Positions 13,729 to 22,954 of a DNA stretch of 52,156 nucleotides are shown here, piece after piece (position 1 is the stretch's first letter; every line of letters starts with the position of its first letter). Where the stretch lies: IMG/VR virus record IMGVR_UViG_3300005367_000002, positions 1 through 52,156 of that record; one strand, 5' to 3'. Origin of the DNA: a virus. The notes below the pieces were generated by a model. It was not told where the DNA came from, ran no database searches, and was given only the letters and a program-made list of their open reading frames with translations. A program made the position numbers and the translations under genes.

Positions 13729-13950
13729 CTACACCGCCCCCCTGCTGATGAACCTGCCAGCACGGTCCAGCGCCTCGGCGACGGTCCGCACGCCGCCGTC
13801 GATGGCTCTGATCTCGCCGTCGCGCCAAAGCTCAACCGTCCAGCAGCCGGATTCCTTGACGATGTGGATCGCGAGGGTCCCGCGGGCGGCCATCTCAAGC
13901 ATCTCGCGCGCCGCCAGCAACTTGGATCGCGCCATGTTCGTGTCCGTCAT
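13729..13950 (-). CDS. hypothetical protein
   Basis: 73 residues. A helical start is followed by beta strands (LAIHIVKESGCWTVELWRDG). Coupled at both ends to the neighbouring genes. No family recognised. Confidence 0.6.
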   Translation of the reverse strand: MTDTNMARSKLLAAREMLEMAARGTLAIHIVKESGCWTVELWRDGEIRAIDGGVRTVAEALDRAGRFISRGAV

Positions 13951-14399
13951 GGCCGCTCTCCTGCCCGCACGGCTTCGTTCGCCTGGTCCATCACCCCACC
14001 GCGCCCGTAGACCTCAGACGGGTGGGCGTGCCAGTCCTCGCCGAGCTTGAGCTGGCGCCAGTGGTACAGCTCATGAGCGATTGACGTCCACGACAGAGCG
14101 CGGCCAGGCTGCCAGGCCACCGCGATGCCCTCCTCGGGGTTCGTATCGCCGTCGAGGCAGCCGCGCGACGTCCTGAACCCGATCCAGTCGTCGAGAAACA
14201 TCGGGCAGGCTGGATCCAACTCGTCTCCGGTCACCCAACGCACGGTTGGCGGCGGCGTCTCGCCCATGCCGTACGAATCGACCCAGATGGACCGCGTCGC
14301 CTCGGCCTGGCCCGGGAGTTCGTAGACCTCGCCCGGCAGGCTCTCGTAGCATCCGGCGAGCGCACAGGCATGCAGCGCCAGCACAGACAGCCACTTCAC
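13947..14399 (-). CDS. secreted lipoprotein with HExxH metalloprotease motif
   Basis: 150 residues from a GTG at 14399 (GTGA overlap). Residues 1-17 form a lipoprotein signal ending in LAGC with Cys 17 as lipid site. HELYH lies at 109-113, the zinc-binding core of many metallopeptidases, followed by HAH at 124-126 and Glu 129 as possible third ligands. It would be exported and membrane-tethered, unlike its DNA-processing neighbours. The substrate is unknown, and an inactive binding protein cannot be excluded. Confidence 0.65.
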   Translation of the reverse strand: MKWLSVLALHACALAGCYESLPGEVYELPGQAEATRSIWVDSYGMGETPPPTVRWVTGDELDPACPMFLDDWIGFRTSRGCLDGDTNPEEGIAVAWQPGRALSWTSIAHELYHWRQLKLGEDWHAHPSEVYGRGGVMDQANEAVRAGERP

Positions 14400-14527
14400 G
14401 ACCACACCGCCCTTCGGCACAGTGCCTCTACCGCCAGACACTCAACCTCCTCGGCGGTGAGCAGAAGAAGCGCGGTACGGTCGTCGACGCGAAGCCACGA
14501 GCCGATGAGGCGGACGTAGGAGCGCAT
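14396..14527 (-). CDS. small hypothetical protein
   Basis: 43 residues; ATG at 14527 overlaps the preceding TAA by one base (TAATG). A Leu-rich middle (TALLLLTAEEVECLAVEAL) suggests a helical hairpin. No family. Confidence 0.5.
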   Translation of the reverse strand: MRSYVRLIGSWLRVDDRTALLLLTAEEVECLAVEALCRRAVWS

Positions 14528-19972: not shown

Positions 19973-20500
19973 CTACCAGCTTGCCCCGACTCCGACGCCG
20001 CCAGCCATACCTGTGGTCCCCCAGATCCCCACGAAAACCGGCCCCAGTACGCGCCGCTGGACGATGATGCCGCCAACGAATGGCGCCGGGGCAAGTAGGT
20101 TGCGCCCGCCTAGTTGAGCACCTGCCAAGACCGATGCCGACCAGTTCGGCCGCGACTCGACTGTGTGAGTCTCGACGGTGGCCTGGTGCGCCTCGCTCTG
20201 CCGCTCCTGCGTGCCCTGCGTGTGATCCTGGCGCTTCGTCTCGGCCTGTGAGTCGCGCTCGAGGTACTGCGTAACCGTCGTGACCTTGTCAGGACCGGTG
20301 CGCCACTGAGTGACGACGTGCTGCTTGACCTGTACGTCGTGCTGCACCTGCACGTCATGCACGATTTTCTCGACGACGCGGTCCTTGTAGACCACGTCGG
20401 TCTTTACGACGTCCCTTGTCCGTTCGGGGCCGTGATGCCGCCCCCACAGCAGCCCGAGCAGCGCCGCGACGGGGACGAGCCCTAACCAACGCGGGCTCAT
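19973..20500 (-). CDS. spanin-like membrane-anchored coiled-coil protein
   Basis: 175 residues. One N-terminal hydrophobic segment (about 5-19), a charged region with Val/His repeats (about 28-110), then a C-terminal part from RPNWSASVLAG onward with short Gly-rich strands ending in GVGVGASW, like outer-membrane strands with a terminal aromatic. This could link inner and outer membranes in one protein, as unimolecular spanins do, but in the opposite orientation. Gene order (next to protease and endolysin) supports a lysis role. Confidence 0.55.
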   Translation of the reverse strand: MSPRWLGLVPVAALLGLLWGRHHGPERTRDVVKTDVVYKDRVVEKIVHDVQVQHDVQVKQHVVTQWRTGPDKVTTVTQYLERDSQAETKRQDHTQGTQERQSEAHQATVETHTVESRPNWSASVLAGAQLGGRNLLAPAPFVGGIIVQRRVLGPVFVGIWGTTGMAGGVGVGASW

Positions 20501-21021
20501 CGGCAGTACCTCTTTCCCACGGCCGCCCCGTCAGCGTCGGACGGCCACGGCAGCACGGCAAGGTTGTGCCCCGCCGCTGGGTCGTACAGCGTCGGCGCCT
20601 CCTGCATGATGGTGCTGCGGTCGTGAGCCAGCCCCAGGACGTGGCCGAATTCGTGGGCCGCGATGACGTAGACACTGCGAATGTCCGACATGACTTGGAA
20701 TTTCACCTCGGCAGAGTCCGCCGAGCATCGCCACTTGCCGGCCATGGCGCCGAGGTACGTCTCAAGCTGAGCTGGCTTCCCGCATGCCGTCCCGTCGTAG
20801 GTCGACACCGTCACCCGTGCATCTGCCGCCTCCCGCAGGACGTCGCAACCCGCTGCATGATTCCAGGCGTCGACCGCATAGTGCAGCGAGCCGTCGTAAA
20901 CCGGGTCGATGCCGTCCCACCGCACGGTAATGGGCACCGAGGACCACGGCGGGTCGGGAAGCCAGTTGACTTGCTGGCGGCATCCGGCAAGAAGCAGGAC
21001 GGCGAGAATTAGTCGGATCAT
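20497..21021 (-). CDS. matrixin-type metalloprotease lipoprotein
   Basis: 174 residues. A lipoprotein signal ends in LLAGC with Cys 14. HEFGHVLGLAHD at 123-134 is the full metzincin zinc site (His 123, 127, 133; Glu 124), and STIM at 136-139 supplies the Met-turn. The N-terminal part includes ITVRWDG and an SLHYAVDAWNHAAGC helix as in matrixins. It is expected to be tethered outside the cytoplasmic membrane. Placed between endolysin and spanin-like genes, it could help break a protein layer at lysis. Substrate unknown. Confidence 0.85.
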   Translation of the reverse strand: MIRLILAVLLLAGCRQQVNWLPDPPWSSVPITVRWDGIDPVYDGSLHYAVDAWNHAAGCDVLREAADARVTVSTYDGTACGKPAQLETYLGAMAGKWRCSADSAEVKFQVMSDIRSVYVIAAHEFGHVLGLAHDRSTIMQEAPTLYDPAAGHNLAVLPWPSDADGAAVGKRYCR

Positions 21022-21155
21022 TCTTCGTCCTGTAGTTTGCGGCGGTCCGACGCCCGGCGCTTGCCGGACGAGTTCTTGCCTCGCTCGTCTTTCCAGTATT
21101 TGCAGTAGCACCCCATGCGTTGGTGCTTCGGTCGCTTCCGCTTGTGATTAGCCAT
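21018..21155 (-). CDS. small very basic protein
   Basis: 45 residues, over a third Lys and Arg, with a CYC pair at 16-18. ATG at 21155 follows the endolysin TAA by a few bases. Nucleic-acid binding is likely from charge alone. Confidence 0.55.
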   Translation of the reverse strand: MANHKRKRPKHQRMGCYCKYWKDERGKNSSGKRRASDRRKLQDEE

Positions 21156-21708
21156 TCGAGGCCTCCAAGAACTTCGCCCGCGTCCATTCGTTCCTCTCGG
21201 CGCGGCTTGTCTTGCGGTGGCACAACTCGGCCGCCGCTGCCCACTGGCGATTCCTGCACGCGTCGAGCAGGTGGTGGAACGTCGACAGGCCTGACACGCC
21301 GCAGTTGAAGGCGATGTCGACCAGCGCCGATTGTGCAGGCGCCGGGTAGCTGTCGAAGTCTGGCAGCAGGCGGTGGATGCCGGGCAGGAACTCAAGGTCA
21401 AGCCTGGCGCGCAAGAGCTCGTCGATCGACTCCTGCGACAGCGAGACGTGAGGCGGACGCGGTGCCCGGTACTGCGACGCGGCCATGCCCTTCGCCAGCG
21501 CGATGACCCGCAGGAAGTCGTCGCCGATCTCTTTGGCTGTCGCTCGTCGGTCGCCATCGGTCAGGAACGGCAGCGATGCTGCGTGTAGACCATCGTGCAC
21601 CAGGTTGCCGACGCCGACGGTGACGTACCCGAGCGTATCGCGGTACATGTGCGGCACGCTCCCCTCAAAGCGGATCAGGTCGGGCACGAAGCGGGATGAG
21701 TCAGTCAT
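21148..21708 (-). CDS. endolysin, GH24 lysozyme (T4 type)
   Basis: 186 residues. The catalytic pattern E-x8-D-x5-T is met by Glu 15, Asp 24 and Thr 30, with GVGN next. A large helical C-terminal lobe (DIAFNCGVSGLSTFHHLLDA) follows. It cleaves the peptidoglycan sugar chain. There is no signal peptide, so release should depend on a holin. ATG 21708 overlaps the preceding stop; the longer frame to 21951 is not used. Confidence 0.92.
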   Translation of the reverse strand: MTDSSRFVPDLIRFEGSVPHMYRDTLGYVTVGVGNLVHDGLHAASLPFLTDGDRRATAKEIGDDFLRVIALAKGMAASQYRAPRPPHVSLSQESIDELLRARLDLEFLPGIHRLLPDFDSYPAPAQSALVDIAFNCGVSGLSTFHHLLDACRNRQWAAAAELCHRKTSRAERNEWTRAKFLEASNG

Positions 21709-22419: not shown

Positions 22420-22758
22420 TCATCGCCTGCGTTTCTCGGTCGACAGCTTCGCCATCGCCGCCTTGAGATCGGACATGTCAGCCGTCATCTTCGCGAACTG
22501 CTCGTTGCGCTGGCGGTCTGATGCCTGGATGCTGGAAACGATGGGCGCGTTCTCACGGCGGACGATGGCTGTCACCTGCTCGTCGATTTTGGCGACGGTC
22601 CACCTGCCCATGCCGATCGCGTACCCGCCGATGGACGCGAGCGCCCCTACGGTGGTGGCGAGCAGCTTGACCCGTGTCGAGAGGGGCCGTCCGAAGCCGC
22701 GCCTCAGGTCCGGGATGTCACCGGCACCGTCGACGACGTGATAGACCCGCCTTGCCAC
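22420..22758 (-). CDS. membrane protein with C-terminal coiled coil (holin-class candidate)
   Basis: 112 residues. One hydrophobic segment at about 32-50 (LLATTVGALASIGGYAIG) followed by a coiled coil of about 60 residues with a basic tail. In many lysis cassettes such a protein accompanies the holin, as antiholin or accessory factor. Assignment is from topology and place. Confidence 0.6.
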   Translation of the reverse strand: MARRVYHVVDGAGDIPDLRRGFGRPLSTRVKLLATTVGALASIGGYAIGMGRWTVAKIDEQVTAIVRRENAPIVSSIQASDRQRNEQFAKMTADMSDLKAAMAKLSTEKRRR

Positions 22759-22759
22759 G

Positions 22760-22954
22760 TCATTTCTCCTTCGTGTCCATCGTGAGCGGCTTGGAAATTC
22801 CCTGGGTCACCATGCCTGCGAACCCGAGGAACACCGCGACGATTTGGATCGTCATCTGGTAGTGAGCCGCGGCAATGCCGATGCCCTGCAACGTTAGACC
22901 AGCCGACGATAGCCCGGCACCGATCACGCCTAAGATTCGCTTGCGCTCGTTCAT
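22760..22954 (-). CDS. putative holin
   Basis: 64 residues with two hydrophobic stretches (about 7-26 and 32-51) and a charged N-terminus, the layout of a class II holin. First gene of the lysis cassette, directly before the coiled-coil membrane protein. Holins oligomerise in the cytoplasmic membrane and release the endolysin. Confidence 0.6.
   Translation of the reverse strand: MNERKRILGVIGAGLSSAGLTLQGIGIAAAHYQMTIQIVAVFLGFAGMVTQGISKPLTMDTKEK

Follow-up and report, generated by a model that had tools for sequence, protein, structure and literature searches.

The lysis region of a soil phage

The protein P0001 is encoded by a soil phage that is represented by a 52-kb virus record, and we refer to the whole stretch of DNA that was analyzed (52,156 nucleotides) as the window. 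The genes for the terminase, the portal (P22-like, by a weak match), and other virion proteins are on the minus strand, upstream of the lysis genes, which form the end of this late gene run (Table 1). The initial annotation had placed an endolysin here, and the matches to Phage_lysozyme and to a PHROG endolysin family bear it out. The candidate holin has no match to a Pfam or PHROG family. Searches of the window for RNA families and tRNAs returned none.

Table 1. Features of the lysis region, from the highest positions to the lowest, followed by the sequence features of P0001.
Feature	Positions	Strand	Evidence or remark
Candidate holin, 64 aa, two hydrophobic stretches	22760..22954	-	sequence and position
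Protein with one membrane helix and a coiled-coil-like tail	22420..22758	-	very weak Rz-like spanin match (phrog_7686, E=0.072)
Endolysin, phage lysozyme (GH24)	21148..21708	-	Phage_lysozyme E=1.5e-7; PHROG endolysin 7e-12
45-aa basic ORF overlapping the endolysin and metzincin genes	21018..21155	-	
P0001, lipoprotein mini-metzincin, 174 aa	20497..21021	-	Pfam Matrixin above cut-off
P0002, with N-terminal membrane helix, variable stalk, and C-terminal beta-rich domain	19973..20500	-	candidate inner-membrane spanin-like protein
Lipobox LAGC of P0001, lipidated Cys14	20980..20991	-	+2 residue is Arg, not Asp
Zinc site HEFGHVLGLAHD, residues 123-134 of P0001	20620..20655	-	catalytic Glu is E124
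Met-turn STIMQ, residues 136-140 of P0001	20602..20616	-	Met139

Four of these genes (endolysin, 45-aa ORF, metzincin, and P0002) overlap successively by 4–8 nt. The stop of the endolysin gene (21148) lies beyond the start of the 45-aa ORF (21155), the stop of that ORF (21018) beyond the ATG of the metzincin gene (21021), and the stop of the metzincin gene (20497) overlaps the ATG of P0002 (20500) by 4 nt. A purine-rich, Shine-Dalgarno-like stretch precedes each overlapping start. P0001 had been described as coupled between the endolysin side and a "spanin-like" gene, and these coordinates agree. A start like that of the 45-aa ORF, MANHxRxRxKxQRxGC, also occurs in L052 (contig C314 of G093), where the metzincin homologue lies two genes upstream of it; L052 is an array of phage-like genes that has an anchored metzincin gene inside it and whose products start with a FADEL-x-K-like motif.

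The label given to P0002 holds for its topology but is not backed by any Pfam or PHROG family; because no family names the protein, "spanin-like" should be read as a statement about topology. An AlphaFold2 model of P0002 (pLDDT 50, low confidence) has a helix at residues 4–22 and four strands within residues 120–173. None of the coding-strand frames of P0002 contains an embedded Rz1-type lipoprotein gene. Relatives of P0002 are found in diverse phages (L036 4896–5384, L037 3342–3803, and L038 3104–3550), and those in L036 and L038 are near holin-like genes. The family has a membrane helix, a fast-evolving stalk, about four predicted C-terminal strands, and an end that is mostly Phe, Leu, or Trp. 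Speculatively, a single gene could here encode the whole spanin, with a beta anchor in the outer membrane at the C-terminal end of the protein.

P0001 and the metzincin families

The initial annotation described P0001 as a matrixin-like protease lipoprotein. Its open reading frame, zinc site, Met-turn, and lipobox are all present as described, and the numbering of E124 is correct. The zinc motif reads HEFGHVLGLAH and is followed by Asp134. HExxHxxGxxH occurs once among the 540 six-frame ORFs of the whole window (75,551 residues), versus 0.005 occurrences expected per window from shuffled sequences. About 12 residues separate the lipid-bearing cysteine from the protein's single domain, and mature P0001 would have about 160 amino acids.

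P0001 matches the Pfam model for matrixins (PF00413) with E=4.8e-6 and 27 bits (the cut-off is 24), but over residues 103–141 only. It also matches Reprolysin_4 at 22.2 bits (the cut-off is 22), and its best match among solved structures is MMP-20 (phmmer, E=4.5e-4). In a single BLASTP comparison, residues 27–136 align with the phage matrixin L063 at 34% identity (E=3e-11); since L063 itself matches PF00413 over almost its full length (2.6e-12), this supports the view that the homology of P0001 to matrixins extends beyond the zinc motif, and it lends indirect support to a metzincin fold. Also, P0001 ends in WPSDADGAAVGKRYC, which looks like the helix that closes matrixins (profile comparison, probability 94%), and a closing helix of the approximate form LxxDDxAGVCxLY is found in eight cellular matrixins from genomes of the phylum Myxococcota. 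An AlphaFold2 model of P0001 from a 7-sequence alignment is of low confidence (pLDDT 35.9). We left this model and that of P0002 out of fold searches because their pLDDT is too low for meaningful matches.

The Pfam match is above its cut-off, but the name "matrixin" is too precise. Like matrixins (Pfam PF00413, MEROPS M10A), P0001 has the zinc site, the Met-turn, and a small single catalytic domain. Unlike them, it has an aspartate after the third histidine, a lipid anchor, and four extra conserved cysteines, and it lacks a cysteine-switch propeptide. A serine or threonine after the third histidine is a feature of matrixins, and an aspartate there is a sign of adamalysins; many bacterial matrixins also lack the cysteine-switch propeptide. 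Asp134 follows the third histidine in all of the viral homologues in our alignment (A1). The aspartate of the adamalysin/reprolysin family (M12B) is thus present in HEFGHVLGLAHD, but the catalytic domain of M12B is about 200 amino acids, versus about 160 for mature P0001, and Reprolysin_4 is barely above its cut-off. Because of the aspartate and the missing cysteine switch, we keep P0001 out of M10A; by its sequence, we class it as a mini-metzincin whose nearest relatives, as judged by profiles, are the matrixins.

Outside of the lysis cassette, the window encodes a second lipoprotein with an HExxH motif, HELYH (13947–14441, minus strand). It has relatives in L053 (3429–3908, minus strand) and L045 (6070–6543, minus strand), both with HEFAH, and it is also found in G012, a sister phage that lacks the metzincin. 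This second lipoprotein has no match to a Pfam or PHROG family. Possibly, two lipoproteins of these phages are anchored zinc enzymes.

Conservation, exchange, and absence of the metzincin gene

Including the window, the P0001 gene is present in nine viral contigs. (One contig is broken inside the metzincin gene, and L007 and L009 are its two ends.) Seven of the viral homologues are 86–90% identical to P0001, and L008 is about 60% identical. Wherever both flanks are present, the metzincin gene lies between the endolysin and P0002, and no more than one additional small gene follows it; such genes are inserted between the metzincin and P0002 in L001, L002, L003, and L009. The same slot in all nine contigs corroborates the initial view that an exported metzincin is a conserved part of this lysis cassette. 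By tblastn, we found no relatives of P0001 in 50,697 annotated phage records, and a first profile scan of genome contigs with viral alignment A1 gave no match. A distant homologue, L050 (E=2.5e-18), is on a phage-like contig of a genome from the phylum Myxococcota; in L050, a membrane-helix anchor replaces the lipobox, and the histidines, the glutamate, and the four cysteines are kept.

Every viral homologue whose N-terminus is intact has the lipobox cysteine, although the lipobox itself varies (LAGC in P0001; LASC, MVGC, LVGC, LGAC, and LLGC among the homologues). The three histidines, Met139, and cysteines 59, 80, 99, and 173 are also invariant in the viral alignment. We checked specifically for homologues that lack the zinc-binding histidines, and 3 of 3 were invariant in the alignments. 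The four extra invariant cysteines would fit a protein that resides in an oxidizing compartment. Glu124 is conserved in all of the viral homologues except L008, the most distant of the cassette homologues, which has HAFGH (Glu to Ala, codon gcg at L008 1283–1285) and keeps all three histidines. In the lineage of L008, catalytic activity may be dispensable, or the change may be an assembly error, as it is seen in a single contig.

The metzincin is under strong purifying selection. Within the close group, its dN/dS is 0.08–0.19 (0.27 for one nearly identical pair), as compared to 0.19–0.24 for the GH24 endolysin and 0.15–0.75 for P0002, so the close-group values are at or below those of the endolysin and mostly below those of P0002. 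Comparisons of L008 with the others give higher values (0.29–0.39).

The metzincin gene lies behind endolysins of three types: GH24 in the window, L001, and L007; M15 in L002, L003, and L004 (Pfam M15_3, 2e-12); and a CHAP type in L005, L006, and L008. (The nearest annotated phage relatives of the CHAP-type protein are CHAP proteins and endolysins.) The metzincin remains 86–93% identical while the endolysin is exchanged among these unrelated types, and the M15 protein is 100% identical between G002 and G003. As for the rest of the genome, G002 is the sole metzincin contig whose terminase matches that of the window (87%), and no other metzincin contig matches the window's portal, with G002 ending before its portal gene. 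In G001, G003, G005, G006, and G007, the position of the holin is taken by another small membrane protein, which these contigs have in common. The three endolysin types and the unlike portals and terminases indicate, at the level of sequence, that the metzincin is exchanged among phages that differ in core type. Phages whose portals and terminases have no detectable similarity possess it in common, a pattern that fits selection coming from a host that they share and not from the machinery of one particular phage.

Some close relatives of these cassettes lack the gene. In G012 (L043), a phage with 92% portal identity to the window, the CHAP endolysin is followed directly by a relative of P0002. 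L035 has a CHAP endolysin cassette in which an 82-aa cysteine-rich ORF fills the slot, and L088 has an M15 endolysin cassette with a P0002-like gene; neither contains the metzincin. These cassettes show that the metzincin is an accessory component that is unnecessary for lysis as such. A lipobox scan identified the metzincin as the sole lipoprotein of the cassette at the seven loci with a readable N-terminus, and found no lipoprotein in the cassettes of L035, L043, and L088, which have P0002-like genes. Separately, the gene immediately upstream of a related M15 endolysin in L087 (2447–3004) encodes a different lipoprotein, one that lacks a zinc motif, so this cassette takes up other lipoproteins as well. 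Altogether, the motifs, lipobox, position, overlaps, selection, exchange, and optional presence of the metzincin gene were seen directly.

A possible accessory role in lysis

Our preferred reading, to which we assign a probability of about 45%, is that P0001 is an accessory lysis factor: a periplasmic metzincin, anchored in the outer membrane and timed to lysis, that cuts proteins of the host envelope. Its synthesis would coincide with that of the lysis proteins, whose genes close the late run. Lipidation, with arginine at the +2 position, would sort it to the outer membrane of what is probably a Gram-negative host, and the tether of about 12 residues would keep the metzincin domain near that membrane. 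The enzyme would act after the holin and endolysin, or earlier, while it accumulates. Its substrates would be host proteins near the outer membrane, such as those that link it to peptidoglycan or to the cell surface. With the envelope weakened, disruption and virion release would be faster or more complete, and the metzincin might be useful on particular hosts only. For P0001 itself, we infer the sorting to the outer membrane, the catalytic activity, the action at the time of lysis, and the substrate in the host envelope. The initial annotation suggested an extra protein barrier, such as an S-layer, as the target; such a barrier is possible, but nothing points to an S-layer in particular.

In the open-access literature on lysis cassettes that encode a phage metzincin, matrixin, or other metalloprotease, the sole relevant example that we found is Mtz-Tim from Listeria monocytogenes and Listeria prophages. 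The prophage-encoded Mtz, beside the holin and lysin, raises phage-mediated lysis, and its proteolytic activity is required (PMC8235301). Mtz, a secreted protein with a Sec/SPI signal, cleaves its partner, the lipoprotein Tim (PMC8235301). As in P0001, this is a phage-encoded exported metzincin with HExxHxxGxxH and a Met-turn, next to lysis genes. However, the host of Mtz-Tim is Gram-positive and Tim is the lipoprotein, whereas P0001 is itself the lipoprotein and its neighbor is a membrane-helix protein; no Tim-like (TIMP-like) lipoprotein adjoins P0001 in the cassette.

The main alternative, which we consider unlikely, is that P0001 modifies the envelope outside of lysis and merely sits in the lysis region. 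For example, it might cleave receptors or other surface proteins, and so block superinfection or change the surface of a lysogen. Accessory genes often occupy the lysis region, and the metzincin is both accessory and mobile; other small genes are inserted at its junction with P0002 (L001, L002, L003, and L009), and the phage of the window has an integrase and so may be temperate. Furthermore, similar proteins occur elsewhere in phage genomes. L063, L065, L027, L026, and L050 are, like P0001, small and exported or membrane-anchored, with HE[FL]GHVLG..H, but they are not in lysis cassettes, and their anchors are lipids (as in L027 and L065) or membrane helices. The matrixins outside of lysis cassettes (L027, L065, L026, and L050) imply that this type of enzyme is not tied to lysis. 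(L026, L027, L063, and L065 are unrelated viral contigs, and by tblastn, the matrixins of L063 and L065 have no relatives in annotated phage records.) On the other hand, the start and stop of the P0001 gene overlap lysis genes on the late-gene strand, a scan for the sigma-70 pattern (the only pattern scanned) found no promoter-like site of its own, and in this phage group, the gene was never seen at another position.

Alternatively, P0001 could act after lysis: on fragments of outer membrane, it would digest an extracellular protein matrix and free virions from aggregates or biofilms. This idea, which seems rather improbable, draws on the membrane anchor and on a possible host phylum, Myxococcota, that is rich in matrixins and forms such matrices. 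Matrixins are found in 23 of 37 genomes from this phylum, versus 1 of 14 controls, and the CHAP endolysin alignment has one cellular match among 84,980 species genomes, at 59%, in a metagenome-assembled genome of the Myxococcales. P0002 weakly matches Myxococcus phage Mx1 (E=0.07), and its profile has no match in the Myxococcota-phylum genomes. The distant metzincin L050, on its phage-like contig, comes from another genome of the phylum. These hints are suggestive, and a myxobacterial host is compatible with them, but they fall short of showing one. Also, a release factor would be expected to be secreted rather than lipid-anchored, and a tether as short as this one points into the periplasm by default.

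The initial annotation had also offered "processing of lysis proteins", but it is very unlikely that P0001 is a maturation protease by which the endolysin or P0002 is trimmed or activated. The gene overlaps and the cleavage of Tim by Mtz (PMC8235301) would suit this explanation, but the metzincin is nearly unchanged while GH24, M15, and CHAP endolysins are swapped, which makes it an unlikely dedicated processing enzyme for any one of them. M15 and CHAP cassettes with P0002 relatives exist without the metzincin, and subtypes of P0002 show no consistent difference between cassettes with it (L006 and L009) and without it (L035 and L043).

P0001 shares some features with the outer-membrane component of the two-component spanins Rz/Rz1 (PMC6139136): it is a lipoprotein, probably of the outer membrane, and its gene follows that of the endolysin and adjoins the gene for a probable inner-membrane protein. 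Rz1 is a short peptide, however, and P0001 has an enzyme-like domain of about 160 amino acids and is missing from related cassettes without being replaced. Least probable of all is that P0001 is a structural o-spanin, the outer-membrane partner of P0002, with the metzincin domain used for binding instead of catalysis: it is the cassette's sole lipoprotein, P0002 has an i-spanin-like topology, and L008 lacks the catalytic glutamate, but the P0002 cassettes without the metzincin have no substitute lipoprotein, all zinc ligands are kept (as is the glutamate outside of L008), and there is no Rz1-like proline-rich linker. As an obligate o-spanin for P0002, P0001 was rejected because of L035, L043, and L088. 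In general, the metzincin-less cassettes lower both this explanation and that of dedicated processing.

Returning to an accessory lysis protease, a broader proposal is that some phages whose hosts have an outer membrane use proteolysis of host envelope proteins as a lysis function in its own right. In this proposal, a lipid-anchored metzincin attacks proteins associated with the outer membrane, working with a holin, an endolysin, and a membrane-spanning protein, and unrelated phages trade it as a host-specific lysis part. We view this generalization as doubtful. A natural comparison is at hand, because the gene is present in some phages and absent from close relatives, and because one protease accompanies three types of endolysin. 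If P0001 acts as we suggest, the precedent of Listeria Mtz would apply also to phages whose hosts have an outer membrane, and the anchored part would there be the enzyme itself. Lysis of Gram-negative bacteria is described as having three steps, carried out by a holin, by a peptidoglycan enzyme, and by disruption of the outer membrane. A conserved protease in the cassette would add envelope proteolysis as an enzymatic step in lysis.
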